Assembly (NCBI GenBank): GCA_947631705.1
Contig: CANRMJ010000006.1
Coordinates: 1-58,196, forward strand
DNA length: 58,196 nucleotides
Direction: 5' to 3'
Origin: an uncultured Clostridia bacterium
Lineage (GTDB): Bacteria; Bacillota; Clostridia; Oscillospirales; Acutalibacteraceae
Below are positions 5,932 to 55,818 of this stretch, one piece after another. How positions within the stretch are numbered: position 1 is the stretch's first letter; each line of letters opens with the position of its first letter. The notes under the pieces are model-generated. The model searched no databases, was not told where the DNA came from, and saw only the letters and a program-made list of their open reading frames with translations. A program made the translations under genes and the position numbers.

Positions 5932-6047
5932 TTGAAACCTCTGATTACCAAATTATTCAATGATAGAAGATTATATCACAAGATAATAAATTTTTCAATA
6001 TGTATATTTGGTGTGCTGTTTTGCTATGTTAAATACAGTGTGCGCGT

Positions 6048-6536: not shown

Positions 6537-6567
6537 AAGTTAACCTCTATATTTAAAAATTATGAAT

Positions 6568-7386
6568 TTATAAATTATTTTTACAAATCTCAATCACGCC
6601 GTTTATATCTTCGCTTGTGAATTTTGTTCCGTTCCATATTTCTTCGGCTACCGCCGCCTGCCATACAAGCATGGGAAGACCGTTTGAATATTTGATTCCC
6701 GATTCACGCGCGTATTTCAAAAACAGCGTTTCCTCAGGATTGTATACGGCGTCGAAAGCGGCGCGCGATTTTTCAATGATTTTTTTAGGAAGAACACTGA
6801 AACCGACTTTCGGATACATTCCTACCGGCGTCCCGTTTATAATAAGATCATATCCGTCGCAAATATCGGAGAGGTCGGCAACCTTAACGCTTTTTCCGAG
6901 CTTTTCTTTTATTTCATTCTTAATTGTTTTTGCCGCCTCAAGATCGGCAGTTCTTGCTCCTATGATAAGGCGGCAGTCTGCAAGAGCGGCTTCAAAAGCA
7001 AACATTCTTGAAACGCCTCCGGCTCCGCACACAAGCACATTTCCCGCAAGCTCTATACCCGCCGTTTCAAGCGCGCGCAGAAATCCCGCGCAGTCTGTAT
7101 TGAATCCTTTCGCTCTTTCTCCGCATTTAACTGTGTTAACGGCTCCGAAAAGAGCGGCTTTTTCATCTAATTCATCAAGAAACGGAATAACGTTGATTTT
7201 ATGGGGAATAGTTACATTGAAACCGCTGAGAGCCTTCAGTTTTCCGATTTCATCACCAAACCTTGCGGGCTCGATTTCATAAAGATCGTATTCTCCGCTT
7301 ATGCCGCTGATTTTAAGCAATTCGCTGTGAATAAGGGGCGAAAGCGAGTGACCGAGCGGATATCCGGCAAGTCCGAAATATTTCAT
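6568..7386 (-). CDS. aroE: Shikimate dehydrogenase
   Basis: NADPH-dependent reduction of 3-dehydroshikimate to shikimate. The product (272 residues) begins with the substrate-binding motif GYPLGHSLSP, contains FNVTIPHK with the catalytic lysine, the AVNTV stretch, the nucleotide-binding GAGGVSR loop and the NGTPVGM block. A TTG one codon upstream (7389) is possible, but the ATG at 7386 is better spaced from AGGTGA. Paired with aroK downstream. Confidence 0.95.
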   Translation of the reverse strand: MKYFGLAGYPLGHSLSPLIHSELLKISGISGEYDLYEIEPARFGDEIGKLKALSGFNVTIPHKINVIPFLDELDEKAALFGAVNTVKCGERAKGFNTDCAGFLRALETAGIELAGNVLVCGAGGVSRMFAFEAALADCRLIIGARTADLEAAKTIKNEIKEKLGKSVKVADLSDICDGYDLIINGTPVGMYPKVGFSVLPKKIIEKSRAAFDAVYNPEETLFLKYARESGIKYSNGLPMLVWQAAVAEEIWNGTKFTSEDINGVIEICKNNL

Positions 7387-7408
7387 CAAATCACCTCTGT
7401 TAAAACTA

Positions 7409-7437
7409 TTGACAACCGAGTTTAAATTTTATAATAT
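7409..7437 (+). promoter_or_regulatory. Promoter of acpP
   Basis: TTGACA (7409-7414) followed by TATAATAT (7430-7437): 15-base spacing to TATAAT or 17 to TAATAT, the same arrangement as the hrcA promoter. It lies 54 bases before the acyl carrier protein start. Confidence 0.75.
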
Positions 7438-7490
7438 GATAATAACACAACAGTTAAATATTAACAACTATTTTTTAGGGGAGACCGATT

Positions 7491-7721
7491 ATGGTATTTG
7501 AAAAAGTCAAAGAAATTCTTGCGGAGCAGCTTGATATTGAGGATATTGATTCAATAACTATGGACAGCTTGCTTGTAGACGATCTCGGAGCGGACAGTCT
7601 TGATTCGATAGACATTGTTATGAGCGTTGAAGATGAATTCAAGCTTGAGGTGCCCGACGAGATTGTTGAAAATATATCTTCTGTTGCGGATATTGTTGAT
7701 TATATAGAAAATAATATGTAA
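7491..7721 (+). CDS. acpP: Acyl carrier protein
   Basis: Carries acyl chains on a phosphopantetheine arm during fatty-acid synthesis. The 76-residue acidic protein has the modification motif LGADSLDSID with Ser36 as attachment site, and the usual four-helix layout. A GGGGAG ribosome site precedes the ATG. It stands alone between its own promoter and terminator and is not in a fab cluster, so it could be a housekeeping copy moved away from fab genes or a specialised ACP. Confidence 0.93.
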   Translation: MVFEKVKEILAEQLDIEDIDSITMDSLLVDDLGADSLDSIDIVMSVEDEFKLEVPDEIVENISSVADIVDYIENNM

Positions 7722-7762
7722 TCTTTTTACAAATATTTGACATAAGTAATAAAAGATATTAA

Positions 7763-7796
7763 AATAAAAGAGTAAGTTTTTAACTTGCTCTTTTAT
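7763..7796 (+). terminator. Terminator after acpP
   Basis: A stem of about 13 pairs (AATAAAAGAGTAAG with CTTGCTCTTTTATT, one wobble) with the second arm T-rich. It lies 41 bases after the acpP stop. Confidence 0.75.
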
Positions 7797-7926
7797 TGAT
7801 TGCTTTATATGCGGTTGATAACGCTGTGATTTGTTTTGCAAGGCGCAAGAGATGTTTTTGCTTTAAAAGTGCGGGCAAAATCACTTTGAAAGAGCGAGTT
7901 GATTTTTGGCACGGAGGGGGATTTTC

Positions 7927-9429
7927 TTGAGTAAAAAGTACGTTATGGCTCTCGATCAGGGCACAACGAGTTCAAGAGTTATCATTTTTGATAAAAAAGG
8001 AGAAATCGTTGCAAAGGCTCAAAATGAATTCACGCAATATTATCCGCAAAACGGCTGGGTTGAGCATGATCCAAACGAAATTCTGTTTTCGGAAATGCAG
8101 GCAATATTGGGCGTTTTGCAGCAGAATAAGATTTCTCCGAACGAGATTGCGGGAATAGGCATAACAAATCAACGTGAAACAACAATCGTGTGGGATAAGG
8201 AAACAGGCAAACCTGTTTATAATGCTATCGTGTGGCAATGCCGTCGAACCGCGGAATATTGCGAACAGCTCAAAGCGGAGGGACTCGGCGATTATATTAA
8301 GTCTACAACCGGTCTTCTTATAGACGCTTATTTTTCCGCAACAAAAATCAAATGGATTCTTGATAATGTTAACGGCGCAAGGGAAAAAGCCGAAAAAGGA
8401 GAACTTCTTTTCGGAACCGTTGATACTTGGCTTATTTGGAATTTGACCTGCGGCAAGGTTCATGTTACGGATTACAGTAATGCGTGCCGCACTATGCTGT
8501 TTGATATTGATAAGCTGCAATGGGATCCATATCTCTGCGAAAAGCTTGGAATACCGATGTCTATGCTGCCGGAAGTGAAGCCCTCAAGCTGCATATACGG
8601 TGAATGCGCGAAATTCCCCGGTATGGAGGCAATAGAGGGAATACCGATTGCCGGCGCGATAGGCGATCAGCCGGGCGCGCTGTTCGGTCAGGGCTGCTTT
8701 GAAGAGGGTCAGGCGAAAAACACTTACGGCACCGGCTGTTTTCTTCTGATGAATACGGGAGAAAACCGCATCAACTCGCGTTCAAATCTTTTAACGGGCG
8801 TTGCGTGGGGACTTAACGGTAAAATCACTTATGATCTTGAAGGCTCCGCGTTTAATGCGGGTTCGGTAATTAAATGGCTGAGAGATGAGCTTGAAATGAT
8901 TAAGGACGCACCCGAGTGTGATGTGCTCGCAAGTCAGGTTGAGGATTCAAACGGTCTTTATTTTGTGCCGGCTTTCACAGGGCTCGGCGCTCCTTACTGG
9001 GATATGTATGCACGCGGTTGCATGATAGGTCTTACAAGAGGAATTAACAAAAAGCATATCTGCCGTGCTGTGCTTGAAAGCATTACATATCAGATGACCG
9101 ATTTGCTTGAAGCCATGATGAGCGACAGCGGAATTCTTTTAAAGGATTTAAGAGTTGACGGCGGCGCGTCTGTTTCAGACATTATGATGCAGATTCAGGC
9201 GGATATGACAGGCGTTAACGTAAACCGCCCCGTAAACAGAGAGGCAACGGCTCTCGGCGCGGCTTACCTTGCGGGTCTTGCAACAGGCGTATGGGAAAGC
9301 ACCGATGAAATTGAGGCAAACAGGAAAGTGGATAAAATTTTCGTTCCCTCTATGGAAGAGGCTAAGCGAAATAAAATTTACGCAAATTGGAAAAGAGCGG
9401 TTGAGCGCTCAAGAAATTGGGAAAGATAG
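7927..9429 (+). CDS. glpK: Glycerol kinase
   Basis: Converts glycerol and ATP to glycerol-3-phosphate. The protein (500 residues, normal length) has the FGGY-family N-terminal ATP motif [15 protein letters not shown], the NQRETT and WQCRRT substrate blocks, the [10 protein letters not shown] region and the C-terminal [12 protein letters not shown] motif. An in-frame TTG at 7906 would put the GGAGGGGG ribosome site inside the gene. The TTG at 7927, six bases after that site, matches the family N-terminus and is preferred. It heads a co-directional run with a 20-base gap to the next gene. No glycerol facilitator or glycerol-3-phosphate dehydrogenase is adjacent. Confidence 0.96.
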
Positions 9430-40997: not shown

Positions 40998-42671
40998 TTA
41001 CTTCATAGATTCCTCGTAAGCTTTGATCATCTTTTTACTCATATGACCTGTACGACCACGAGTGTTTTCAAGCAATTTTTCTACCGTTGTGCCTGCATTC
41101 AGGCGGATTTCAAATCTTGTTACACCATTTTCGGGATAAACTATAATTTCTTTGATATACCTGTCCACAAAGGCTTTGTCAATTTCTTCATCGTCAATAT
41201 GTTTTTCCGCCGCTTTGAGTATTGCTTTAATGTTGGCTAACTCTTTTTTCATTTCCAGTTCGGTTTTTTCTGTTGCAGTCAGCATATCAAGTTTTTGGTG
41301 TAATTTTTCAATTTCTAAATTACAATCGGCAGTCATTTTTACAAAGTCATCGTCAGTGATATTGCCGTTAGTATTGTGTTCAAGCAATTTGGTTTTCATT
41401 CTTTCTTGCGTAATAATGTCTTTATTAATCTTATTTATCTCTGCTTGATTGTCCTTTGCGTCAAGCAGTTCCGATACAAGTTTTAATACACAGGCTGATA
41501 ATTCTTCAATATTCTGCTGACCCGATTTGAAAATGTCCTCAATAATCGGCTTAATTTCACTTTCATAAATTGCATGTGACGGACAACTGCCGGCGCCGTT
41601 TTTTATTTTACCTGAGCATACCCATTTGGAGATTTTTTCTCCGTTTTTGCCAACGGCGTCTTTTCGGTAATAAGGCTTGCCGCAGTGTGAGCATATCAAC
41701 TTGCCTGTCAGCAGATTTTGATGAACCGTTTTGTGCTGGGCAGTGATAACATCCTGACTTCGCATATACAAAACCTCGTTCGCCTTTTCCCACAGCTCTT
41801 CACTAACGATGGCAGGTACGGTTTCGCCTGTTTTGTCCTTATACATAACCCATTCTTCTTCAGGCAGAAATTTCTGTTTTTTTGTGAACAAGTCTGTTAT
41901 AACAACCTTGTTGCCGACAAAGTAACCCTTGTATTTTGGATTGCGTATAATGTTTCCCATTGTTGAGTGGGATAGCTTGTTGCCCTTGCTGTTTCGTATG
42001 CCTTTCTGATAGAAATGCTTTTCCATCTGCTTCATACTGAATTTGCCTGTTGCGTACATTTCAAATAATTCCCGAACAAACCCGGCTTGCTCTTCGTCAA
42101 TCATCAGCTTGCCGTCTTTTTTTGTGTAGCCGAACATATTGTTCGTGCCGAGCACAGTGCCGTTTTTGATTGCCTGATGATGACCGAACCGCACACGGTT
42201 TGAGATTTTTCTCGACTCATCCTGCGCCATTGATGACATAATCGTCAATCTCAATTCCGAGTCCTCATCAAGAGTATTGATGTTATCACTTTGAAAGTAC
42301 ACAGCAACTCCGTTTGAAAGCAGTTCACGGGTAAACCTGATACTGTCAAGTGTGTTACGGGCAAATCTCGATACCTCTTTTGTGATTACCAAATCGAATA
42401 ATCCAAGCTTTCCATCCTCAATCATTTCATTAAACCGTTCACGCTTGGCAGTTGACACACCCGATATACCCTCGTCAACATAACCGTCAACATATTCCCA
42501 ATTAGGATTGCTCTTGATAAAATCTGTATAGTAGGTTATCTGATTATCAAGGGAGTTAAGCTGGACATTGAATTCCGTACTTACACGGGCATAGAATGTC
42601 ACCCGCAAGGGTAGGTTCATAAAGCTGATATTTTCTTTTTTTATCCTTTCTCTCACAGCGTATATATCCAT
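40998..42671 (-). CDS. Large serine recombinase (integrase of the element)
   Basis: Site-specific recombinase of the TndX/TnpX type. The product (557 residues) has the resolvase domain with catalytic Ser31 in FYARVSTEF and DEGISG, and ITKEVSRFARNTLDSI. A recombinase domain with FGYTKKDGKLMID and NPKYKGY follows, then a zinc ribbon (CSHCGKPYYRK to WVCSGKIKNGAGSC), a long coiled coil (about 425-500) and a C-terminal domain. The ATG at 42671 follows GAGGTGA. The longer frame to 42695 is not needed. It sits at the left end of the element, the usual place. Confidence 0.93.
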   Translation of the reverse strand: MDIYAVRERIKKENISFMNLPLRVTFYARVSTEFNVQLNSLDNQITYYTDFIKSNPNWEYVDGYVDEGISGVSTAKRERFNEMIEDGKLGLFDLVITKEVSRFARNTLDSIRFTRELLSNGVAVYFQSDNINTLDEDSELRLTIMSSMAQDESRKISNRVRFGHHQAIKNGTVLGTNNMFGYTKKDGKLMIDEEQAGFVRELFEMYATGKFSMKQMEKHFYQKGIRNSKGNKLSHSTMGNIIRNPKYKGYFVGNKVVITDLFTKKQKFLPEEEWVMYKDKTGETVPAIVSEELWEKANEVLYMRSQDVITAQHKTVHQNLLTGKLICSHCGKPYYRKDAVGKNGEKISKWVCSGKIKNGAGSCPSHAIYESEIKPIIEDIFKSGQQNIEELSACVLKLVSELLDAKDNQAEINKINKDIITQERMKTKLLEHNTNGNITDDDFVKMTADCNLEIEKLHQKLDMLTATEKTELEMKKELANIKAILKAAEKHIDDEEIDKAFVDRYIKEIIVYPENGVTRFEIRLNAGTTVEKLLENTRGRTGHMSKKMIKAYEESMK

Positions 42672-42796
42672 AATTTTCACCTCTCTTAGTGCCACAATAT
42701 CACAGTTTTTCTGTTTAATCCAGTCAATATGATATTGTTTTCCACTTTTATTTTACAATAATAACAGTTCCCTTTCATTAGGAAACTGTTACCATT

Positions 42797-43027
42797 TTAA
42801 TGTGTGTTATATCTACGGTTAACTTCGGTGTTGATTTTTGCTATCAGTTTTTTATAAGTTTTTTCGTCAATCGCGTTTTGAGCGACAAGCGCATTTGCAA
42901 AATGCTCCATCCAAAGCTCAGTACTTATCTTATCATTCGTGTTTTGAGTATTGATTTTATCTCCGCCTTTTGAAGTTTTATCAATACTATTATTACCTCT
43001 GTTTCCAAGATTTATTTGTTTTGCCAT
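42797..43027 (-). CDS. Small element-borne protein, 76 aa
   Basis: A small hydrophilic protein: Asn/Lys/Thr-rich N-terminal half without predicted structure, then helical STELWMEHFANALVAQNAIDEKTYKKLIAKINTEVNRR. The end loosely resembles SHOCT-type short C-terminal helices. It lies between the relaxase and recombinase genes on the same strand. Function not recognised. Confidence 0.6.
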   Translation of the reverse strand: MAKQINLGNRGNNSIDKTSKGGDKINTQNTNDKISTELWMEHFANALVAQNAIDEKTYKKLIAKINTEVNRRYNTH

Positions 43028-43064
43028 ACGGCAACACTACTTATTTATTTTCCGTTTCACTCCT

Positions 43065-44015
43065 TTACATAAACATTCCGATACCGTGATACTCATCGTA
43101 TTCTTCGTCATAATCTTCATTCGTGATTTTAAGACCCTGAGCGATGAGTTTTTCAATTTCTTTCTTGCTGTGGTGTGGCATCCATTTGCGTTTTGTGTTG
43201 TTTTGCATTTCCAAATCAAGTAGGTTGCCTATAAGCTTGAATAAATCATCAGAAATAATTCCTGTCTGCGGTGTTTCATATTCCTGATATTCTTCTGAAA
43301 TTATACTGTCACAACCGCCGAGTTCAAAGTAAACTTCAAGATTTTCTTTTAGAAAACGTTCGTCAAATAACTTGTTGGCACGGCATTTGTGATTGTCATC
43401 CGTTGTAAAAGTGATGTACTTGTGATTGTCCAGCCAGTCAACCTTAACACCCATTCTGCCAAGCAAATAAATAAAATCTTTTTTCGTTGCGCTATGTTCC
43501 ATTACGTACTCAACTTTTATAAGCAGTTTGCGTTTCCATTTCGGCATATTGTATCTGGTGGCCTTTGCCTCTGTAAGAGTGAGTCCGTACTCCTGACAAA
43601 TCTTGTTTGAATACTCTTTTGCCTGTATCATTTCATCTCTTGTCTGGTGAAATTTCTTGCCGTTTACAAAATTAACTGAGTTGAAAACGATATGGTTGTG
43701 GATATGATTTTTATCTGTGTGAGTAGCAATTACCATTTGATAACTGCCAAAGTATTCTGCAAATTTTAAGCCTATCTCGTGAGCAGTTTCGGGTGAAATG
43801 TTATCTTCGGGACTGAAAGATTGCACTACATGATAATACTGCCTGCCGTCTGTTTTACCAAATTGTTTTTTAACATTTATAAATTCTTCCATAACTGTTT
43901 CAGGCATACAGTTGATACCGCTGATTAATTTTTGCTCCGTTTTTTCTTCTTTCATAATATATGGAAAGATATTATTCATCGGACTGCCTGAGGTAACGAA
44001 TTTAACGATTGCCAA
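43065..44015 (-). CDS. MobP-type relaxase
   Basis: Nicks DNA at oriT and pilots the strand during mobilization. The 316-residue protein has the relaxase N-terminus VKFVTSGSPMNNIFPYIM, a tyrosine-containing YYHVVQSFSPEDNISPE, and the histidine triad region HTDKNHIHNHIVFNSVNF (His104, 106 and 108). The C-terminus is short, with no primase or helicase domain. The start is a TTG at 44015 eight bases after GGAGGTG. It overlaps mobC by 40 bases. Confidence 0.9.
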   Translation of the reverse strand: MAIVKFVTSGSPMNNIFPYIMKEEKTEQKLISGINCMPETVMEEFINVKKQFGKTDGRQYYHVVQSFSPEDNISPETAHEIGLKFAEYFGSYQMVIATHTDKNHIHNHIVFNSVNFVNGKKFHQTRDEMIQAKEYSNKICQEYGLTLTEAKATRYNMPKWKRKLLIKVEYVMEHSATKKDFIYLLGRMGVKVDWLDNHKYITFTTDDNHKCRANKLFDERFLKENLEVYFELGGCDSIISEEYQEYETPQTGIISDDLFKLIGNLLDLEMQNNTKRKWMPHHSKKEIEKLIAQGLKITNEDYDEEYDEYHGIGMFM

Positions 44016-44287
44016 ATTTTTTGCACCTCCTTTTTCGTTTCAGTTAAGTCAACAGCAAAGACTCCGCTGTTGACCGCTTTTGTAATTTGATTTAGGTTAT
44101 TTCCTATTCTACGGAGCTCTGCTGATAATTCTTTTACTCCGTCAATTACAATGATTTCTTTATCCAAAGCACAATCACGGAGGTACATACTGACAAGTCT
44201 GTATGATGAAAGTGCTTTTGTTTCAATCAATTTCTTCTCTTCAGGAGTTGCTCTGAAGGTTAGTATTTCTGTTCTATTTTTACTTAT
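43976..44287 (-). CDS. MobC-like relaxosome accessory protein
   Basis: Ribbon-helix-helix type mobilization protein that helps the relaxase at oriT. The recognisable protein begins SKNRTEILTFRATPEEKKLIETKA and ends in the MobC signature ELRRIGNNLNQITKAVNSG. No ATG, GTG or TTG lies at that point; an ATA at 44287, five bases after AAAGGTG, is the best-placed start. A GTG at 44386 gives a longer frame, but the extra 33 codons run through the palindromic oriT candidate and look non-coding. The start is therefore uncertain; the C-terminus is clear. Confidence 0.75.
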   Translation of the reverse strand: MSKNRTEILTFRATPEEKKLIETKALSSYRLVSMYLRDCALDKEIIVIDGVKELSAELRRIGNNLNQITKAVNSGVFAVDLTETKKEVQKIWQSLNSLPQAVR

Positions 44288-44310
44288 ATTATCACCTTTA
44301 TCCTTTCCTA

Positions 44311-44365
44311 ATAGGGGTATGGGCTTAGCCCGAATGCATTTGTTATCGCCGTGGCGTAATACAAA
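44311..44365. other. Candidate oriT upstream of mobC
   Basis: An 11-base palindrome GGGCTTAGCCC at 44321-44331, preceded by ATAGGGGTAT and followed by a second inverted repeat CGCC-GT-GGCG at 44347-44356. It lies directly upstream of mobC and the relaxase, the usual oriT place, and resembles hairpin-plus-nic layouts of MobP systems. The nic position is not known. Confidence 0.5.
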
Positions 44366-44461
44366 TGCGAAACCTGCAATAAACACGCTAAACCACTACA
44401 CCCTTTATTTGAATTTTTGTCCGTATGCCGATATTTGGCTTTAAAAATTTGATTAGGGTAG

Positions 44462-45562
44462 TTATTCTATTTTTCTTTCATCTGCCCAAATTTTGCCGAC
44501 AGGGTCGCAAGGGACGAAAGGAACGGAAGTTATGACACTGACAATTTCTTCGTCACTTACGGCACTTGAGTCACTTACAGAAAGATAGGAAACTTCAACG
44601 AGCCTTTGTCCATTACTTCTGTGGCTTGCAAAATTAACACCATTATCTTCAAGGTCATATCTGTATTTGTTCATCATCTGCTTTAATGATTTTGCAGTAA
44701 GATTGTAATTTGCAAATTTATTAAATTCGTTTACCAAATCAGTATTGCTACCTTTGAAATGTTTTTGTGATTTCATAAACTCAATGAAGTCAATCATCTC
44801 TTGCGGTATAATTGGAACAGGATTTTCAAGGCTATCGTTTAACAAATCCCAAGTGCAGTTTTCTTTGTTGAAAGATAATTGAAATTCTCTTTGTTCAATA
44901 TCCCTGCCGGTGCAAAGTAGATTTGCTTTGTTTTCATTTCGTTTGTCTTTGTCCAAAATAAACACAGCATCAACTGCACCACTGATTCCTGTTGTACCGG
45001 ATAGCTTGTTCAACGGATCACTGTCACCTTGTTTTCTAAGATGATGAACCAGCAGAATAGAGATTGACATTTCATCAGCATATTTTTTCAATTTCCCGAT
45101 TTCATTGTAATCATTTGCATAGGATAATTCTGAACTTGAATTCCTTATCATCTGAAATGTATCAATTACAATCAAATTTGTATCACTATGATTGATAATG
45201 AAATTTTGAATCTGCTGAATCAATCCTGTTTCAATACTTTCAGACTTTGTTGCAACATATAAGTTCGACGGTACTTCATCAGTTATGCGATTCAGCCTGT
45301 CCTGAATTCTTGCGAGACTATCTTCAAGACAGAGATAAAGAACCGTTCCTCTTTCGGTGGGAAGATTCCAGATTTTTTCTCCTTTAGCAATTTGTACACA
45401 CCAGTCAAGTACCATCCACGATTTACCAATCTTTGGCGCACCGCCGAGAATTGAAACACCCTGTGGCAACAAAGACTGAATACAAAATCTTGATTTAGGG
45501 AACTTCATATCCATCAGAGTTTCACCGTCAACTACTTCAAGTAACTTAATTTCTTTTTCCAC
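44462..45562 (-). CDS. RepA-like AAA ATPase (AAA_25)
   Basis: A RecA-fold ATPase of the plasmid RepA helicase group. The 366-residue protein has Walker A GGAPKIGKSW (about residues 40-49), the Walker B strand LIVIDTFQ, the sensor stretch LLVHHLRKQ and SGTTGISGAVDAVF. The C-terminal region has no clear domain and may bind DNA. On mobile elements such proteins support replication or unwinding after excision. GGGAGGT precedes the ATG. Confidence 0.85.
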   Translation of the reverse strand: MEKEIKLLEVVDGETLMDMKFPKSRFCIQSLLPQGVSILGGAPKIGKSWMVLDWCVQIAKGEKIWNLPTERGTVLYLCLEDSLARIQDRLNRITDEVPSNLYVATKSESIETGLIQQIQNFIINHSDTNLIVIDTFQMIRNSSSELSYANDYNEIGKLKKYADEMSISILLVHHLRKQGDSDPLNKLSGTTGISGAVDAVFILDKDKRNENKANLLCTGRDIEQREFQLSFNKENCTWDLLNDSLENPVPIIPQEMIDFIEFMKSQKHFKGSNTDLVNEFNKFANYNLTAKSLKQMMNKYRYDLEDNGVNFASHRSNGQRLVEVSYLSVSDSSAVSDEEIVSVITSVPFVPCDPVGKIWADERKIE

Positions 45563-46911: not shown

Positions 46912-48480
46912 ATGGCTAAAGCAAATAAAAAAGAAATACCAATGGAAGAAGCACTTTGGAAAAGTGCTGATAAATTAAGAGGTTCGGTAGAACCGTCAGA
47001 ATATAAACATGTTGTTTTAAGTTTGTTTTTTCTGAAGTTTGCAAATGATAAGTTTCAAAAGCAAAGGGAAAAGCTTATTGCTGAGGGCAGAGAATCTTTT
47101 GTTGATAAAAGTTTTGCTTATACAAAGGACAATGTTTTCTATGTTCCGGAGGAAAGCAGATGGTCATATCTTATGGAAAATGCAAAGCAGGAGAATATTG
47201 CTTTGCTTATAGATACTGCTCTTTATACAATAGAAAAGAATAATCCGGCTCTTAAAGGTGCTTTGCCGGATAATTATTACTCGCGTCTTAATATTGATAC
47301 AACCAAACTTGCTTCATTACTTGATGAGATAGATAAAATAGATACACAAAAAGATGAAGAGAATGATGTTATCGGTCGTGTGTATGAATATTTTCTAGCC
47401 AAGTTTGCGCTTAAAGAAGGTAAGGGCAAAGGAGAATTCTATACCCCAAAATCAATTGTTAATCTTATTGCAGAAATGATTGAACCATATAAGGGTAAAA
47501 TCTATGATCCTTGTTGTGGTTCAGGAGGTATGTTTGTTCAGTCATATAAATTTATAGAAAGTCATCAAGGTAATACTCGTGATGTTTCCGTTTATGGACA
47601 AGAGTATACAAATACAACTTTCAAACTGGCAAAGATGAATTTAGCAATTAGAGGTATTACTTGCAATCTTGGTGAACAGGCTGCAAATACTTTCTCAAAC
47701 GATCAGCATAAAGATTTGAAAGCAGATTTTATAATGGCTAATCCGCCCTTTAATCAGAAAGAATGGCGTGCGGAAAATGAACTTGTTGATGATCCGAGAT
47801 GGAATGGTTATGAAGTTCCGCCAACAAGTAATGCAAACTATGGTTGGATTTTGAATATTGTTTCAAAACTATCGCAGGATGGTGTTGCCGGATTTCTGCT
47901 TGCTAATGGTGCTTTGTCAGATGATGGTACGGAGCTAAAAATCAGAAAGCAACTTATTGAAAATCATCTTGTTGAAGCAATAGTAATTCTTCCAAGAAAT
48001 TTATTTTATACAACAGATATCAGTGTTACACTTTGGATTTTGAATAAAAATAAAAAAGAACGCACTATTGAGCAAAATGGAAAATTAAAAAAGTATCGTA
48101 ATAGAGAAAATGAAGTTTTGTTTATGGATCTTCGTCAGATGGGTTCACCATATGAGAAGAAATATATCGAGCTAACAGTTGATGATAGAAAAAAAGTTGC
48201 AGATACATATCATAATTGGCAACAGATTGATTTTGAAGAAACTTATGAAAATGTGCCTGAATTCTGTTATAGTGCAGATATAGATGAAATCGCTGAAAAA
48301 GGTTATACTCTTGTACCAAGCAGATATATTGAATTTGTTAATAGAGATGAAAACATTGATTTCGATACCAAAATGAAAGCCTTGCAGGGCGAACTGAAAG
48401 ACCTGCTTGTGCAAGAGGAAAAGTCAAAGGCTGATTTGCTGAGTGTGTTCAAGGAGTTGGGATATGAAATCGAAATGTAA
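46912..48480 (+). CDS. hsdM: Type I restriction-modification methyltransferase subunit
   Basis: N6-adenine methyltransferase subunit, acting as M2S or R2M2S with HsdS and HsdR. The 522-residue protein has the N-terminal HsdM helical domain (LWKSADKLRGSVEPSEYKHVVL), the S-adenosylmethionine motif DPCCGSGGMF near residue 199, and the catalytic NPPF near residue 277. The C-terminal coiled region contacts HsdS. GAGGTAA precedes the ATG. Its last 17 bases overlap the start of the adjacent hsdS half gene, so that position is translationally coupled to hsdM. Confidence 0.97.
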   Translation: MAKANKKEIPMEEALWKSADKLRGSVEPSEYKHVVLSLFFLKFANDKFQKQREKLIAEGRESFVDKSFAYTKDNVFYVPEESRWSYLMENAKQENIALLIDTALYTIEKNNPALKGALPDNYYSRLNIDTTKLASLLDEIDKIDTQKDEENDVIGRVYEYFLAKFALKEGKGKGEFYTPKSIVNLIAEMIEPYKGKIYDPCCGSGGMFVQSYKFIESHQGNTRDVSVYGQEYTNTTFKLAKMNLAIRGITCNLGEQAANTFSNDQHKDLKADFIMANPPFNQKEWRAENELVDDPRWNGYEVPPTSNANYGWILNIVSKLSQDGVAGFLLANGALSDDGTELKIRKQLIENHLVEAIVILPRNLFYTTDISVTLWILNKNKKERTIEQNGKLKKYRNRENEVLFMDLRQMGSPYEKKYIELTVDDRKKVADTYHNWQQIDFEETYENVPEFCYSADIDEIAEKGYTLVPSRYIEFVNRDENIDFDTKMKALQGELKDLLVQEEKSKADLLSVFKELGYEIEM

Positions 48481-48964
48481 ACTTGGAGATATCATCTCTC
48501 AAAGGAGAGAAAAGTATAACGGTGAAAATCTTCCGATATGTGGCGTTACACGCGATGGCTTTATTCCGCCAAAGCAAAAGGACGCTGATTTAAGTCTATA
48601 TAATGTATTCTACAAAGATGATTTCGTTTTTAACCCGGCAAGAATGGAACTCAATGCCATTGTTTTTAATGACATATACGAAAAGGCGATATGCTCATCT
48701 TTGTATGAAATATTCTATGTAAGCAAACCCGACATAGTATTGCCAAGCTTCCTTGCATTATTAGTTAAGCAAGCTTGGTTCACACGCTATTGTGAGTTCT
48801 TGGGTAGTGGTTCTGCCCGTGAATATTGCAGAGTAGCTAATATATCTGAGATAGAAATAGAATATCCGGATTTAGACGAACAGAGAAGAATAGTAAACGA
48901 ATACGATGTGATAAGAAACCGTATAGCGTTAAAAAGGAGGATAAATGATAATTTAGCGGCTTGA
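48464..48964 (+). CDS. hsdS: HsdS half gene A (N-terminal target-recognition domain, expression site)
   Basis: Specificity subunit half: one target-recognition domain (KCKLGDIISQRREKY to SEIEIEYPDLDEQRRIV) plus the central conserved helix ALKRRINDNLAA. It then stops at TGA 48962, exactly after the inversion repeat. 166 residues against about 370-400 for a full HsdS. ATG 48464 lies within hsdM. Inverting the adjacent 0.66-kb segment would fuse it in frame to half gene B and restore a full protein. A half HsdS might also act as a homodimer, which is known for some truncated HsdS proteins. Confidence 0.88.
   Translation: MKSKCKLGDIISQRREKYNGENLPICGVTRDGFIPPKQKDADLSLYNVFYKDDFVFNPARMELNAIVFNDIYEKAICSSLYEIFYVSKPDIVLPSFLALLVKQAWFTRYCEFLGSGSAREYCRVANISEIEIEYPDLDEQRRIVNEYDVIRNRIALKRRINDNLAA
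48941..48960 (+). repeat. Inversion site S1 (end of half gene A)
   Basis: The 18-bp core TAAATGATAATTTAGCGG in plus orientation within a 20-bp match to S2. It encodes the conserved NDNLA of HsdS. Confidence 0.92.
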
Positions 48965-49576
48965 TAATGTGGTTAAAACCGTTGTTTGAAGTTCCACCAA
49001 TTCAAATATTTCAGCATTATTTAAGGAAATCGCCCTTCTTATTATATCGGCTTTCCTCGTGAATTCAGACTGTAATTCGATAGGTGGAATTAGCAGTTGG
49101 TAATTAAGGAGATAATCTATCTTCATATTTGGTCTAACTGATGTGGCACTATTCATTCGACTGATATAGTTTATAAAATCCGTGGTATTGATTGCCCAAT
49201 AAACAAATAGCGGTAATGCTTTTTGATTATCAACTTTCAATCTTATCAAACCGTTGTTATAAACCGCGGAAATATCATTAGGAATATATTGTGTTATGCC
49301 GAGAGTTGCAGTCCTCGTAACGAGAATATCTCCTGCTTGTAGTTTATAGTTCTCGTAAACTACTTTTGTAGCTCTACAAAATGACCAAGAAGCATATTCT
49401 CGACCATTAGTTATATCACCAACTCTCGCACATTTAATTCCAGTATTGTAATTCACTATAGGTACTTTTTGAATTGCGTCTCCTCCTGTATTTGCAGAAA
49501 CAACTACGTCACCTAATGTCGCTTGTTTCCATTTTTCATTACTTTGGGAGAGAAAATCAGAAAACAATGTAGTCAC
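48953..49576 (-). CDS. hsdS: HsdS half gene B (inverted, silent C-terminal target-recognition domain)
   Basis: Second-half HsdS module in reverse orientation: WKQATLGDVVVSANTGG opens a target-recognition domain, which ends with the C-terminal conserved helix LVELQTTVLTTLSSR. The same type of C-terminus ends the complete hsdS downstream. Its frame is open upstream through S2 (NDNLAAQVTTLF), so fusion to half A at the repeat keeps frame. The nominal GTG at 49576 has no ribosome site and no promoter, so it is best read as a storage cassette, not an expressed gene. Confidence 0.85.
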   Translation of the reverse strand: MTTLFSDFLSQSNEKWKQATLGDVVVSANTGGDAIQKVPIVNYNTGIKCARVGDITNGREYASWSFCRATKVVYENYKLQAGDILVTRTATLGITQYIPNDISAVYNNGLIRLKVDNQKALPLFVYWAINTTDFINYISRMNSATSVRPNMKIDYLLNYQLLIPPIELQSEFTRKADIIRRAISLNNAEIFELVELQTTVLTTLSSR

Positions 49577-49580
49577 TTGC

Positions 49581-49600
49581 GCCGCTAAATTATCATTTAT
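49581..49600 (-). repeat. Inversion site S2 (start of half gene B)
   Basis: Exact reverse complement of the 20 bases of S1. It lies at the N-terminal edge of half gene B. Confidence 0.92.
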
Positions 49601-49618
49601 AATGTATATAAACTTCCA

Positions 49619-49662
49619 ACAGCGGTGGGAGTTAAAACAAAGAACTGCCGCTGGTTTTGTTC
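49619..49662 (+). terminator. Terminator-like hairpin before the recombinase gene
   Basis: Nested stem CAGCGG with CCGCTG plus AGTT with AACT inside it, followed by GGTTTTGTT. It lies between S2 and the recombinase ribosome site, and could separate hsdM-hsdS transcription from the recombinase in the present orientation. Confidence 0.55.
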
Positions 49663-49683
49663 TCTGTTATAAGGAGGATGAAT

Positions 49684-50664
49684 ATGGAAAATAAATTAAC
49701 TACAGAAATAATTCAAAGAATGCTGCCGTATTTGGATAATGCACAGCTGATTAAACTTCGGGAGATTCTCGGAAAAGTTTTGGTTGGTGTTGAACTATCT
49801 GAAAACTATTTAGAGGAAGAGAGTAATGAATGTCTATTAAACTCTTTTATTTCGGCAAAAAGAGTTGAAGGATGTTCTGAAAAATCTCTTAATTATTACT
49901 TGTCGACAATTAATAAAATGCTTCTAACTGTTGATAAGCCTGTTAAGCATATACAAACAGATGATTTAAGAGTGTATTTAACAGAGTATCAATCAGCAAA
50001 ATCCTCAAGTAAAGCAACCATGGATAATATAAGAAGAATTCTTTCAAGTTTCTTTACATGGCTTGAAGATGAAGACTATATTGTAAAAAGTCCTGTGAGA
50101 AGAATACATAAAGTAAAAACAGAAACAAAGATCAAAGAAACTTACAGCGATGAAGCATTAGAATTGATGCGGGATAATTGTAAAAATCTGCGAGATTTAG
50201 CAATCATCGATTTGTTATCATCAACCGGCATGAGAGTTGGTGAAATGGTGTTACTGAATAAAGAAGATATTGATTTTGCGGAACGAGAGTGCGTTGTATT
50301 CGGTAAAGGTAAAAAAGAAAGAATAGTTTATTTTGATGCAAGAACAAAAATACATTTAAAAAATTATATTGACAGCAGGAAAGATGATAATCCGGCCCTT
50401 TTTGTTACATTAAATAAACCTAACACAAGACTTACAATTTGTGGAGTTGAAATAAGGTTAAGAGAACTGGGGAAAAGACTTAATATAGAAAAAGTTCACC
50501 CACATAAATTCAGAAGAACATTAGCAACAATGGCTATTGATAAGGGGATGCCGGTTGAACAATTGCAATGCCTTTTAGGGCACAAAAGAGTAGACACTAC
50601 ATTGCAATACGCAATGGTTAAACAGAGCAATGTGAAACTTGCTCATAGGAAATACATCGGTTGA
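49684..50664 (+). CDS. Tyrosine recombinase of the hsdS inversion system
   Basis: XerC/D-like site-specific recombinase, presumed to act on S1-S4. The product (326 residues) has an N-terminal SAM-like core-binding domain (about 55-140, YYLSTINKMLL to FFTWLEDEDYI) and a catalytic domain. The catalytic residues are Arg184 in STGMRVGEM, the HPHKFRRT box, the LGHKRVDTT box and Tyr309 in LQYAMV. ATG 49684 follows AAGGAGG; a frame from 49657 is not needed. Its position inside the hsdS cluster is typical of phase-variable type I systems. Confidence 0.92.
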   Translation: MENKLTTEIIQRMLPYLDNAQLIKLREILGKVLVGVELSENYLEEESNECLLNSFISAKRVEGCSEKSLNYYLSTINKMLLTVDKPVKHIQTDDLRVYLTEYQSAKSSSKATMDNIRRILSSFFTWLEDEDYIVKSPVRRIHKVKTETKIKETYSDEALELMRDNCKNLRDLAIIDLLSSTGMRVGEMVLLNKEDIDFAERECVVFGKGKKERIVYFDARTKIHLKNYIDSRKDDNPALFVTLNKPNTRLTICGVEIRLRELGKRLNIEKVHPHKFRRTLATMAIDKGMPVEQLQCLLGHKRVDTTLQYAMVKQSNVKLAHRKYIG

Positions 50665-50674
50665 GGTGAAAGAA

Positions 50675-51778
50675 ATGAAGGAAGGCTACAAAGCACTTGG
50701 TGAATTTATCCGTCAGATAGATATTCGTAATACCGAGGGCAAAGAGGATAACCTGTTGGGCGTCTCTGTTCAGAAACGGTTTATCCCCTCTATTGCAAAT
50801 ACAGTCGGAACTGATTTCACAAAATACAAGGTTGTGAAAAAGGGACAGTTTACATATATTCCTGACACCTCTCGCAGAGGAGACAAAATTGCCATTGCTT
50901 TACTCCAAGACTATGAAAAAGGTCTTGTAAGCAATGTCTATACTGTATTTGAAGTGATAGATGAAGAAAAACTCTTGCCGGAATATCTTATGCTTTGGTT
51001 TAGTCGCCCTGAGTTTGATAGATATGCTCGCTTCAAGTCACACGGAAGCGTTCGTGAGATTATGGACTGGGACGAAATGTGCAAGGTCGAATTGCCCGTA
51101 CCGTCCATTGAGAAACAAAGAAGCATAGTAAAGGCTTACAAAGCCATAACAGATAGAATTGAGTTGAAAAGGAAGATAAATGATAATTTAGCGGATACGG
51201 CGCAAACAATTTTTAAGCACCTATTCATTGATACATCAAAGGAAGCAATGCCAGCAAATTGGGAAAAGACACCACTATATCATGTAGCAGATCTTGGAGC
51301 TGGCGGTGATCGTCCTGACGTATTCTCGGAAATCAAAACATCCGAATGTCCTATCCCGATATTTTCAAATGGAATCGAGAATGAAGGTCTTTATGGATTT
51401 ACAGACAAGCCTAAAGTACAAACGGAAAGTGTCACAATTTCTGCCAGAGGCACCGTTGGATATGTATTTCTCAGACAGGAACCTTTTGTTCCTATTGTAA
51501 GGCTTATATATATAACCCCAAACACAACAAGAGTGACGGCGAAATACCTGTACTTTGCTTTGCGATATGCAGAGATGAACAGCACAGGAACGTCCCAGCA
51601 ACAAATCACAGTTCCTGATTTCAGGAATACACCGATTATTGTCCCAGATGCTGCCACTCTCACGGCGTTTATGCACCTTATTGATCCATTGTTCGATGAA
51701 ATTAAACAGCACAAGGAAGAAATCGAACAATTAAGAACCCTTCAAGCAGTATTGTTGCAAACAATATCAAGCCGCTAA
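50675..51778 (+). CDS. hsdS: HsdS complete specificity subunit (domains C and D)
   Basis: DNA-recognition subunit of the type I complex. The product (367 residues) has target-recognition domain C (KALGEFIRQIDIRN to CKVELPVPSIEKQRSIV), the central helix ELKRKINDNLAD at repeat S3, domain D (PLYHVADLGAGGDRPD onward) and the conserved end LRTLQAVLLQTISSR at S4. ATG 50675 lies 11 bases after the recombinase stop with GAGGTGA upstream. It is intact and in the same direction as the recombinase, TIR gene and hsdR. Confidence 0.92.
   Translation: MKEGYKALGEFIRQIDIRNTEGKEDNLLGVSVQKRFIPSIANTVGTDFTKYKVVKKGQFTYIPDTSRRGDKIAIALLQDYEKGLVSNVYTVFEVIDEEKLLPEYLMLWFSRPEFDRYARFKSHGSVREIMDWDEMCKVELPVPSIEKQRSIVKAYKAITDRIELKRKINDNLADTAQTIFKHLFIDTSKEAMPANWEKTPLYHVADLGAGGDRPDVFSEIKTSECPIPIFSNGIENEGLYGFTDKPKVQTESVTISARGTVGYVFLRQEPFVPIVRLIYITPNTTRVTAKYLYFALRYAEMNSTGTSQQQITVPDFRNTPIIVPDAATLTAFMHLIDPLFDEIKQHKEEIEQLRTLQAVLLQTISSR
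51176..51194 (+). repeat. Inversion site S3 (centre of complete hsdS)
   Basis: 19 bases identical to S1, in plus orientation, encoding NDNLA between domains C and D. Confidence 0.92.
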
Positions 51779-51789
51779 ATTATCATTTA
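51771..51789 (-). repeat. Inversion site S4 (end of complete hsdS)
   Basis: 19 bases identical to S2, in minus orientation, spanning the stop codon of the complete hsdS. Confidence 0.92.
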
Positions 51790-51812
51790 GACATAAATAG
51801 GAGATGAATTGG

Positions 51813-52667
51813 ATGAAGAATGATTTGTTAACTCTAATTGAAGCTATTCCTAAAATAGAATCGAAATTCAGAAAAATTGAACCATCACCTGGGCTTTGCA
51901 TTCCGTCGGGAGAGTTCATATATGATGCCCCGGAATTTATAGAGTGGAAAGAAGCGGTCAAATTTGAATTACAAGAGATTTATGACAGAACTCACGATAC
52001 ATATATTTGGAATATTATAAATGTGAATGGAGTTATCCATAAATTCAACGGAAAAAATTTTGATGAGAGAGATAATTTTAATAGGCTAAAAAGCTCTCTT
52101 ATGGTGATACAAAAGAATCTTAATAAATACTATCCGGATGAACCGGGAGGAAGTGAAAATACCGTGATGCTAAAATCTAAATTATTTATAAGCCATGCTT
52201 CAGCGGATATAGAATATGTAAAACCCTTTGTTGAGCTTCTTGCTGACATTGGAATGACTAACGACAATTTATTCTGTTCCTCTGTTCCTGATTATGCTAT
52301 ACCGTTAAATCAGGATATATACGAATATTTGGCTGATTTATTCCGCAATAATAAGCTATATGTTCTTTTTATGCTATCTAATAACTATTATACAAGTCCC
52401 GTCAGTTTGAATGAAATGGGAGCGGCATGGGTCTTGAAGAGCGAATATACGACAATTCTTCTTCCTAAATTTGAGTACAAAGAAATTAAAGGAGCTGTTA
52501 ATCCCAATAAAATAGGAATGACATATGATGATAAAGATGAACTGCTCAAAAAGCGTTTGGGAGAGTTAAAAAATATCATTTCTGAAGAATTTGGAATAAG
52601 TGTTCCAGATATGCGTTGGGAAAAGAAGCGAAATGACTTTATAGATGCAATAAGAAAAATGTCTTGA
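51813..52667 (+). CDS. TIR-domain protein embedded in the type I RM locus
   Basis: The product (284 residues) has an N-terminal helical domain (about 1-115) with no recognised family and a C-terminal TIR domain from about residue 123. The TIR begins KLFISHASADIEYVKPFVELL, continues with FRNNKLYVLFMLSNNYYTS, and has the candidate catalytic Glu201 in SLNEMGAAW. TIR domains of bacterial defence systems cleave NAD or make signalling nucleotides. ATG 51813 is nine bases past GGAG; the ATG at 51804 is too close to it. The gene starts 24 bases after S4 and ends 16 bases before hsdR, so it is cotranscribed with hsdR and fixed outside the inverting segment. A defence or restriction-alleviation role is inference. 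Confidence 0.85.
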   Translation: MKNDLLTLIEAIPKIESKFRKIEPSPGLCIPSGEFIYDAPEFIEWKEAVKFELQEIYDRTHDTYIWNIINVNGVIHKFNGKNFDERDNFNRLKSSLMVIQKNLNKYYPDEPGGSENTVMLKSKLFISHASADIEYVKPFVELLADIGMTNDNLFCSSVPDYAIPLNQDIYEYLADLFRNNKLYVLFMLSNNYYTSPVSLNEMGAAWVLKSEYTTILLPKFEYKEIKGAVNPNKIGMTYDDKDELLKKRLGELKNIISEEFGISVPDMRWEKKRNDFIDAIRKMS

Positions 52668-52683
52668 CAAAGGAGTGACCGCA

Positions 52684-55600
52684 ATGGCGAATTTTAACGA
52701 ACACGCTTTGGAAATGTCAATAATGGAGCTTTTTCAGAATGAAGGGTACATATATGCAAATGGCAGTACTATACATAGAGAAAAGACAGAAGTTTTATTG
52801 CTTGATGATTTGAAAAACTATCTTTTAGACAGATACTCTGCTGATGGAATTACTTTAAATGAGATATACAGTATTGTTCAAATGCTTCGTTATTCTTCAG
52901 GTTCATTATATCAGGATAATAAAGCTATTTTTAAAATGATTTCTGACGGTTTTATATTTAATCGTGAAGACAGAAATCTTAAAGATTTATTTATTGAACT
53001 TATTGATTTTGAAAATCCACAGAATAATATATTCAAGATTATAAATCAAACAGAAATCCAAGGAAGAGAACAATTAAGAATTCCTGACGGAATAGTTTAC
53101 ATTAACGGCTTGCCGTTAGTTGTGCTTGAATTCAAATCTGCTATAAAAGAAAATACTACAATTAAAGATGCTTATACTCAGCTTACTGTTCGATATCGCA
53201 GAGATATTCCAGATTTATTCAAATACAATGCATTTGTTATAATTAGTGATGGTGTTAATAACAAATATGGTTCTTTATTCAGTTCTTATGAATTCTTCTA
53301 TGCATGGAGGAAAATTGATGATAATGATGAAGAAGTTGATGGTATAAATTCTCTTATTACAATGGTAAAAGGTCTGTTTAGAAGGGACAGATTGCTTGGT
53401 GTTATAAGGAATTTTGTTTATTTTCCAGACGATAGCGAAAAAGAAATTAAAGTAGTTTGTCGATATCCACAGTATTTTGCAGCAACAAAGTTGTTTGAGA
53501 ATATCAAAAAAGAAATGAAACCTGCTGGTAGCGGTAAAGGTGGAACATATTTCGGTGCTACAGGCTGTGGTAAAAGCTATACAATGCTTTTTCTTTCAAG
53601 AATGTTGATGAAAAGTATAGAATTTTATAGTCCTACAATTGTAATTATTACCGACAGAACTGATTTAGATGATCAGATGTCTAAACAATTTGTCGCATCA
53701 AAAACATATATTGGTGATGATAATGTTGTAAGTATAACTTCAAGAGCAGAGTTGCGTAATTCTCTTGCGGGAAGAACAAGTGGTGGTGTTTATTTAACTA
53801 CTATTCAGAAATTTACAGAGGATTTGGAATTACTGTCTGATAGAAATAATATTATTTGTATTTCTGATGAAGCACATAGGTCACAAGTTAACTTAAAGCG
53901 AAAAGACAAAGTTACGGAGCGTGGCTTTGAAAGAAAGTATGGCTTTGCCAAATATTTGCATGACTCATTGCCTAATGCCACATATGTTGGATTTACAGGA
54001 ACTCCTATTGATGCAACTATTGATGTATTTGGTAATGTTGTTGATGCTTATACAATGACTGAATCTGTTAAAGATGGTATAACTGTCAATCTTGTTTATG
54101 ACGGACGAGCTGCAAAGGTAAATCTTGATCAACAAAAAATTCGTGAAATCGAAGATTATTATGATAAGTGTGCTATAGAAGGCGCAAATGAATATCAGAT
54201 TGAGGAAAGTCAAAAAGCAGTAGCTAATTTAGAAGCCATTATTGGCGATCCCGATAGACTTCGTTCAGTGGCAAATGACTTTATTAATCATTATGAAACA
54301 AGGGTTAGCGAAGGAGCAACAGTTGCGGGTAAGGCAATGTTTGTGTGTTCAAATAGAAATATTGCTTATAATTTTTATAAAATACTTATTGAAATGCGAC
54401 CTGAGTGGGCAGAAGTTAAAGAGTGTGACGATGGTGCAATTTTAACGGATAAAGAGAAAAAAGAGTTGAAACCTATTGAAAAAGTAAAAATAGTTATGAC
54501 TCGAAATAAAGATGACGATGAAGTTCTTTACAATATGCTTGGCACAAAAGAAGATAGAAAAGAGCTTGATCGTCAATTTAAGAATGTTAAATCAAACTTT
54601 AAAATTGCCATTGTTGTTGATATGTGGCTGACAGGATTTGATGTTCCTGAACTTGATACAATATATATTGACAAGCCTATTAAACAGCACACTCTTATTC
54701 AAACAATCTCTCGTGTTAACCGTGTGTGCGAGGGTAAAGATAAGGGACTTATTGTAGATTATATCGGCATAAAAAAGAATATGAATATTGCCCTGAAGAA
54801 GTACACTAACTTTGAAAAAGAGGAGTTTGAGGGTGTTGAGCAAGCTGTAAAAATTGTAAAAGATCAATTAGAAGTTCTTGATCAAATGTTTTATGGTTTT
54901 AACAAGGATAATTATTTTAATGGCTCACCTACAGAGCAATTAGAATGCTTAAATTTAGCTGTGGAATTTATTCAGCATAGCGAGAATCTTGAACTTAGAT
55001 TTATGGCAGGTGTTAAACGCTTAAAACAGGCTTATAATTTGTGTGCAACTAGTGAAAGTATAAATGAAAAGGAAAAAGATTTAATCTATTTTTATTCAGC
55101 TGTTAGATCTATTCTTTTTAAGTTGACCAAAGGAGAGGCTCCTGATACTGCACAGATGAATGCTCGAGTTAATGAAATGCTTAAAGAAGCAATTCAGTCT
55201 GATGGTATTGAGGAACTTTTTGAAACTGGTACGCATATCAATGTTGACATATTTAGTGATGAATATATTGAAAAAATTAATCGTATTAATCTTCCAAATA
55301 CCAAAGTTAAGATATTAGCAAGATTGCTTGCACAAGCAATCGACGAATTCAGAAAAGTTAATAAAATAAAAGGTGTTGAGTTTTCTGAACGAATGAAAAA
55401 AGTTGTTGATGATTATAACAACAGAAGAAAAGAAGAAGCGTATGCAAAAGAAGTTTTAGATGATGTTGCTAATCAATTAACAAATCTTTTAGAAGAATTA
55501 AAAAGTGAAAAAAATTCTTTTGAAGGTATGGGAATTAATTTTGAAGAAAAAGCATTTTATGATATTCTTGAATCGATTGCCAAAAAGTATGAGTTTGATT

Positions 55601-55818
55601 ATTCAGATGAAAAGATGATTGAATTGTCAAAGGCAATTAAAGTTATTGTTGATGATAAATCTAAATATACTGATTGGGCTACAAGGGAAGATATTAAGGC
55701 TAATCTTCAGTTCGATTTGGCGATTGTACTTGATGAGTATGGTTATCCTCCTGTTACAATTGATGATGTTTATAAAGAGGTTCTTGAACAAGCAGAAAAC
55801 TTCAAAAAGTATGCATGA
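52684..55818 (+). CDS. hsdR: Type I restriction endonuclease subunit R
   Basis: Motor and nuclease subunit that translocates and cuts unmodified DNA. The product (1044 residues) has the N-terminal PD-(D/E)xK nuclease (GIVYINGLPLVVLEFKSA, Glu/Lys near 147-151). The superfamily 2 translocase follows, with Walker A GATGCGKSY near 294, Walker B/DEAH near 396 (SDEAHRSQ), TGTP, and motif VI QTISRVNR. A long helical C-terminus contacts HsdM. Full length, no disruption. ATG 52684 follows AAGGAGTG. Confidence 0.96.
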   Translation: MANFNEHALEMSIMELFQNEGYIYANGSTIHREKTEVLLLDDLKNYLLDRYSADGITLNEIYSIVQMLRYSSGSLYQDNKAIFKMISDGFIFNREDRNLKDLFIELIDFENPQNNIFKIINQTEIQGREQLRIPDGIVYINGLPLVVLEFKSAIKENTTIKDAYTQLTVRYRRDIPDLFKYNAFVIISDGVNNKYGSLFSSYEFFYAWRKIDDNDEEVDGINSLITMVKGLFRRDRLLGVIRNFVYFPDDSEKEIKVVCRYPQYFAATKLFENIKKEMKPAGSGKGGTYFGATGCGKSYTMLFLSRMLMKSIEFYSPTIVIITDRTDLDDQMSKQFVASKTYIGDDNVVSITSRAELRNSLAGRTSGGVYLTTIQKFTEDLELLSDRNNIICISDEAHRSQVNLKRKDKVTERGFERKYGFAKYLHDSLPNATYVGFTGTPIDATIDVFGNVVDAYTMTESVKDGITVNLVYDGRAAKVNLDQQKIREIEDYYDKCAIEGANEYQIEESQKAVANLEAIIGDPDRLRSVANDFINHYETRVSEGATVAGKAMFVCSNRNIAYNFYKILIEMRPEWAEVKECDDGAILTDKEKKELKPIEKVKIVMTRNKDDDEVLYNMLGTKEDRKELDRQFKNVKSNFKIAIVVDMWLTGFDVPELDTIYIDKPIKQHTLIQTISRVNRVCEGKDKGLIVDYIGIKKNMNIALKKYTNFEKEEFEGVEQAVKIVKDQLEVLDQMFYGFNKDNYFNGSPTEQLECLNLAVEFIQHSENLELRFMAGVKRLKQAYNLCATSESINEKEKDLIYFYSAVRSILFKLTKGEAPDTAQMNARVNEMLKEAIQSDGIEELFETGTHINVDIFSDEYIEKINRINLPNTKVKILARLLAQAIDEFRKVNKIKGVEFSERMKKVVDDYNNRRKEEAYAKEVLDDVANQLTNLLEELKSEKNSFEGMGINFEEKAFYDILESIAKKYEFDYSDEKMIELSKAIKVIVDDKSKYTDWATREDIKANLQFDLAIVLDEYGYPPVTIDDVYKEVLEQAENFKKYA

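Follow-up and report, generated by a model that had tools for sequence, protein, structure and literature searches.

A stretch of 58,196 nucleotides from an uncultured Clostridia bacterium of the gut (GenBank assembly GCA_947631705.1, contig CANRMJ010000006.1, positions 1 to 58,196; the whole stretch is called the window below) carries a Type I restriction-modification (R-M) locus in which hsdS, the specificity gene, is divided into halves around four copies of one short site. The full operon runs in the order hsdM, half hsdS A, inverted C-terminal half B, XerA-like tyrosine recombinase, complete hsdS C-D, SpbK-like TIR gene and hsdR. Its features, with the evidence for each, are as follows.

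46912..48480, + strand: hsdM, Type I adenine methyltransferase (Pfam N6_Mtase 7.2e-102, HsdM_N 4.5e-23)
48464..48964, + strand: N-half A of hsdS, unjoined, ending INDNLAA* (open reading frame, ORF; Methylase_S 1.7e-7)
48942..48959, + strand: site S1, joint of A and, read backward, the stop end of cassette B (exact repeat)
48953..49599, - strand: C-terminal half cassette B, inverted (open frame; Methylase_S 1.3e-10)
49582..49599, - strand: site S2, start end of cassette B (exact repeat)
49597..49686, + strand: structured leader RNA of the recombinase (fold, covariation, covariance model R1)
49684..50664, + strand: tyrosine recombinase, XerA-like (Phage_integrase 8.6e-32; NCBIfam XerA_Arch, 236.6 bits against a curated family cut-off of 220)
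50675..51778, + strand: complete hsdS C-D, N-half C plus cassette D (Methylase_S 7.4e-25, two stretches)
51177..51194, + strand: site S3, joint C-D (exact repeat; in the first long helix of the structure model)
51772..51789, - strand: site S4, stop end of cassette D (exact repeat)
51804..52667, + strand: TIR-domain SpbK-like defence protein (PADLOC spbK 9.5e-65; Pfam TIR_2 24.9 bits, under the cut-off of 28)
52675..55818, + strand: hsdR (NCBIfam TIGR00348 487 bits, cut-off 284.55)

The four sites are exact copies of TAAATGATAATTTAGCGG, 18 nt each, and when up to two mismatches are allowed the window still holds just these four. The chance expectation is a mean of 0.02, and none of 100 shuffles reached four copies. 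An earlier note on this DNA had named these places and strands, all of which are exact, and had put every site at a joint between HsdS domains. That description suits S1 and S3, the joints of a coding N-half, and fails for S4, which is the C-terminal end of D, while S1 read backward is the end of B. The site has a dual role: forward it encodes the I-N-D-N-L joint, and backward it supplies the TAA stop that ends B and D, both of which finish in S-S-R-stop. Turned round, such a cassette end gives A-A-stop when read in the N-half frame, and half gene A stops just past S1, where the window reads INDNLAA-stop. B is inverted and open from S2 on the minus strand in the frame that would continue A, its listed ORF start (GTG at 49576) being a mechanical one. 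The single complete hsdS, C-D, encodes an HsdS of 367 aa; N-half C is complete with its own ATG, and the inverted part is the C-half B only. On the end of half gene A, the frame of B and the completeness of C-D this agrees with the earlier note. All four joins are open in the window (A-B, 374; A-D, 359; C-B, 382; C-D, 367 aa), and so the four proteins that the note had foreseen are all possible, although two of them do not need its successive inversions: given the order and directions of the sites, S1xS2 alone yields A-B and S2xS3 alone yields C-B. The residues R, K, HxxR, H and Y of the tyrosine recombinase motif can be read in the translation of the XerA-like gene.

The AlphaFold model of C-D (mean pLDDT, the predicted local distance difference test, 89.7) consists of a first target recognition domain (TRD1), a helix at 145-185, TRD2 and a helix at 326-366, and its best fold matches are Type I and related S subunits. 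The site motif, I168-L172, falls within the first long helix, and thus half A, by homology, would retain TRD1 and most of that helix. Esub1 (PDB 8vsr, 8vsq), by its structure titles a single-TRD HsdS-like protein, aligns with some 190 columns of the C-D model. There is thus a solved structure, alone or with a partner, of a protein that has this fold and one TRD; any functional parallel with half A would be speculative.

We propose that the N-terminal halves of hsdS are fixed, A behind hsdM and C behind the recombinase, while the C-terminal half genes B and D would be movable cassettes with a copy of the one site at either end. As the putative catalyst, the tyrosine recombinase next to them would recombine the sites and so place B or D in frame behind A or C, for a maximum of four recognition specificities. 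A reversed cassette would, with its far end, close the N-half left unjoined by a stop that lies two codons beyond the shared I-N-x-N-L. Most sampled genomes hold one complete HsdS and one clean half at a time.

Related loci were collected with the recombinase as query from one genome per species across 84,980 species, which gave at least 516 relatives, the best 80 of which were used, from 80 genomes of the genus and 300 of the family, and from plasmids, phages and viral contigs. Eleven of 16 plasmid records (H1-H11) and one of seven phage records were taken in, and viral contigs contributed 22 loci to the census. Removal of the duplicates L012, L050, L092, L106 and L142 reduced 130 loci with a recombinase to 125, of which 78 could be read in both slots; in the other 47 at least one slot was unreadable, owing to contig ends, other types of site or degeneration. 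Among these 78, A alone is joined in 33, C alone in 36 (window included), both in two and neither in three, and the recombinase is flipped in four, the flipped call for L027 depending on an hsdM direction from a 21% match. Three unread loci (L052, L073, L125) also appear flipped. In 69 of the 74 loci whose hsdM and recombinase are codirectional, one N-half and no more is joined, which leaves the other as a half gene (p 9e-16 against independence at one half). When recombinases are grouped at 95% identity or above, 64 of 73 groups obey this rule, five contain an exception and four are flipped (p 2e-14). The 13-nt core is the same at all four sites in 72 of the 78 loci, with 12 core variants across loci. 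Selection on protein does not explain this identity within a locus, because S2 and S4 lie outside translated genes in unflipped loci.

On the recombinase tree (62 rows, built before the plasmid and viral loci joined), the A-joined and C-joined labels are scattered, with 20 and 22 changes against 20.2 and 20.8 when shuffled. The joined N-half does not cluster, and therefore the phase switches and turns over quickly; the rule of one whole and one half persists despite this turnover. The earlier note had described the window as having a half gene in the hsdM slot and a complete copy elsewhere. By the census this is one of two alternating phases and not the design, with 36 loci arranged this way and 33 the opposite way. 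Since the phases alternate among relatives, the half gene of the window is best read as one phase and not as damage. Alternatively, half gene A might have decayed or be a relic frozen in one state, a reading that could appeal to its shortness and to the lack of a C-half behind it in the window assembly. Against it stand the near-equal numbers of unjoined and joined A, the scatter on the tree, and the intact recombinase, hsdM and hsdR of the window. In relatives, moreover, the N-half frame that faces a reversed cassette end closes six codons from the joint start in 129 of 148 slot ends, and we regard decay or a frozen state as exceedingly improbable.

Similar N-halves stay in their own slot in 30 of 35 between-locus pairs and similar C-halves in 24 of 57; these pairs are not independent of one another, and flipped and duplicate loci were excluded. 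The window's own halves have no close copies in the all-against-all comparison of loci, the sole match being C with an N-half of L007 (76.5%).

The earlier note had assumed that the four sites are equivalent and invert freely, without any rule on which N-half is joined. Enumeration of inversions at the four sites gives 16 arrangements, in which all four proteins can be obtained by inversions alone. Eight of the 16 have the recombinase flipped, and four of the other eight have exactly one joined N-half. The rare both-joined, neither-joined and flipped loci are in keeping with such a process. A uniform walk, however, would put half of the loci in the flipped class and half of the remainder in the one-joined class, against four of 78 and 69 of 74 observed. 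The counts depart from free inversion, and therefore either the moves or the surviving states are constrained. As a neutral model free inversion is disfavoured; to stand, it would require that cells of the both-joined, neither-joined and flipped kinds be strongly selected against, and overall it seems unlikely.

A direct view of switching comes from four Lactococcus plasmids, which are identical outside every site, at all four junctions (1200 of 1200 nt), and show three arrangements inside. In pJM2A and pUC073A, A is joined to X and Y is reversed; in pUCCL627F, A is joined to Y and X is reversed; and in pJM1A, C is joined to X, with X also reversed behind A. In each differing pair identity stops 15, 16 or 23 nt from the site start. 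Together with the census, these junctions strongly support the claim of the earlier note that specificity switches by recombination at the sites. The breakpoints also bear on whether RecA-mediated homologous recombination between hsdS copies, as opposed to site-specific recombination, could move the cassettes. Like cassette ends do share up to 59-60 nt in some loci, but the plasmid breakpoints fall 15-23 nt into the site, and between like-ended sites exact identity runs on past the 13-nt core for a median of 2 nt (69 loci), leaving RecA a very improbable agent.

A further possibility is that a circle bearing the recombinase is excised and reintegrated, and that the cassettes travel mainly in this way, as in the pneumococcal tvr/SpnIV system. 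This route would keep both the recombinase direction, which is retained in 74 of 78 loci, and the one-joined rule, and direct pairs of sites exist (S1/S3 and S2/S4). L007 (3564-8126) contains a 2274-nt tandem duplication of the recombinase, N-half C and cassette D, that is, exactly the S2-S4 unit, with both ends cut exactly at the site. Such a tandem copy is the expected product of integration of an excised circle, which suggests that circles also occur. The change from A-X to A-Y in Lactococcus, however, needs both cassettes to be swapped and turned round with the recombinase direction restored, which is impossible by direct-repeat excision alone. A circle as the principal route is thus conceivable, and we hold it only tentatively. 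In two loci the same cassette occupies both slots, with 665 nt identical in L105 (pJM1A, 5275-8184) and 729 nt in L080, which suggests either intermolecular exchange or misassembly. Four L. salivarius plasmids also vary: two are C-joined and one has neither N-half joined (these three are in the census), while the fourth, L102, looks A-joined by annotation only.

Preferential pairing of like with like (S1 with S4 and S2 with S3, by shared cassette end) was considered as a cause of the rule. It would explain the rule because the both-joined and neither-joined states make like pairs direct and hence deletion-prone, and like-ended flanks match at 23.8 and 23.1 of 40 positions against about 11 of 40 for unlike ends. 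It is an idea only, weakened by the short exact identity past the core; homologous protein ends suffice for the rest.

Between S2 and the recombinase start lies a leader with a conserved fold of three helices: hairpin P1 (49611-49617/49627-49633) with a 9-nt loop, a pseudoknot in which this loop pairs downstream (49620-49626/49647-49653), and a hairpin over the Shine-Dalgarno sequence (49673-49677). The fold has a z of -3.40, and one of 200 shuffles was equally stable. Forty-five of 65 extracted leaders were aligned, with seven similar and 13 visibly unlike ones left out, and the percentages describe this subset: 90.0% of cells are paired, against at most 54.3% in slid versions. Two-sided changes occur in 13 of 24 pairs (P1, 6/7; pseudoknot, 4/7; Shine-Dalgarno hairpin, 3/10), and the covariation score is 0.346 against 0.198 for shuffled alignments (standard deviation 0.010), with none of 500 shuffles as high. 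RNAalifold, which is unable to show pseudoknots, chose unaided the helix of the pseudoknot, together with five of the base pairs in the final hairpin. Covariance model R1 scores 61.7 bits on the window leader, whose row was used in the model. Across 64 sources it gave 35 matches, and all 33 with E <1e-8 have their ends no more than 12 nt from the recombinase start; among these 33 the window is the only model-building sequence. Where extra sequence lies between S2 and the recombinase, the leader stays at the recombinase. Whole-genome searches found matches in four of 148 relatives and 11 of 341 genomes of the class, the window genome being counted in both. Of 15 distinct genome places, 12 have this recombinase or a fragment of it beside or overlapping the match, and the other three (E 7e-5 to 7e-4) are probably chance.

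Rfam 15 gave no match to the leader, either in window positions 48900-51820 with E values up to 5 or, at the gathering score, in nine relatives, and no description of it was found in a literature search judged on titles and abstract starts. Of the thousands of candidate RNAs that have been reported from human microbiomes, 28 lie close to domains of integrases, sortases or phages (PMC8040213), and the leader may be among them. The structured leader would mask the ribosome-binding site and so probably hold back translation of the recombinase. A promoter scan around the locus was uninformative (25 found, 25.3 expected).

Several observations weigh against the proposal of fixed N-halves, mobile C-half cassettes and a leader-controlled recombinase. 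The recombinase of the Lactococcus plasmids is just 61% identical to that of the window, and the Lactococcus plasmid tested, L103, has no leader match. The alternative arrangements are known from relatives, the window's own species being represented by one assembly, and the double cassette of pJM1A needs an intermolecular event or could be misassembly. Further pair types in the leader number 33 against 31.0 in shuffles, a value reached by 64 of 500, and this one control on the leader fold is thus weak. The leader model also misses the four-site loci L036, L052, L075, L082, L099, L101, L103 and L107, and finds no match in the lactic-acid plasmids tested (L099, L101, L102, L103, L107) or in several Clostridia loci; the leader RNA is therefore not a universal part. 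The recombinase is a presumptive catalyst, and the change in methylated motif a predicted outcome. Nevertheless, the anatomy of the locus, the arrangements of relatives with their breakpoints at the site, the family-wide turnover of phase and the covariation of the RNA are observed, and the proposal as a whole is, in our judgement, very probably the best explanation.

The locus resembles SpnD39III/ivr of S. pneumoniae and the ST8 and CC4 loci of Listeria, which shuffle hsdS TRDs between inverted repeats beside a tyrosine recombinase (PMC4190663, PMC4783014, PMC7662400). SpnD39III has six alleles and Listeria CC4 four, each with its own methylation targets. SpnD39III and CC4 combine an expressed complete hsdS with silent copies that lack a proper start, ST8 combines one with an oppositely oriented hsdS, and all of these loci use two or three different repeats. 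The window, in contrast, uses one short repeat throughout; both N-halves have starts and point the same way, the C-terminal halves move, and an unjoined half is a normal second state. SpnIV/tvr likewise shuffles hsdS with its own tyrosine recombinase, the output of which is limited by an RNA structure; that RNA is a terminator-like attenuator, whereas the window has a pseudoknot and a Shine-Dalgarno hairpin (PMC6265443). Direct repeats, circular intermediates and toxin-antitoxin homologues are features of tvr, while the window sites alternate in direction. A REBASE survey of duplicated hsdS loci covers the same general, widely distributed class and admitted only perfect inverted repeats that were 20 bp or longer (PMC7394358). 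Shared cores here are about 15 nt, and thus part of the family could be missed under that requirement, although the window's own S1/S4 pair, at 25 nt, would pass. No description of the window layout was found in a literature search judged on titles and abstract starts.

Shuffling of hsdS is itself already known; its combination here with a single site in two roles, C-half cassettes that move, the rule of one whole and one half, and an RNA leader makes the variant a new one. A switch in restriction specificity re-marks the whole genome and alters which phages and plasmids enter. As a quantitative constraint, the rule has to be accounted for by any mechanism, and through it the natural use of half HsdS subunits becomes directly testable. 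It is possible, though we would not lean on it, that the locus is a toggle that always yields one complete HsdS plus one single-TRD half as a functional partner, such as a specificity subunit that homodimerises or competes, and that recombinase translation is gated by a pseudoknot RNA not listed before. Any function of the half protein, like control of switching by the RNA, would be a predicted one. That a conserved RNA precedes the gene of a DNA recombinase offers a handle on what sets switching rates.

The family is present in many Clostridia and in lactic-acid bacteria and their plasmids. In L070, L072, L095 and L147, relatives of the recombinase that go without this core lie between or beside complete hsdS genes, and therefore the recombinase family serves other layouts too. 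A 66%-identical recombinase is found on an archaeal plasmid, Methanosphaera pNP174 (L109), with hsdS not annotated in the stretch shown.

Two neighbours of the shuffling genes may be mentioned. The SpbK-like TIR defence gene is embedded in the R-M operon, between hsdS and hsdR, and a mobilisation module adjoins the R-M locus at 40998-45562, with a large serine recombinase, a MobA/VirD2 relaxase, a NikA/MobC protein and a DnaB-like AAA protein.

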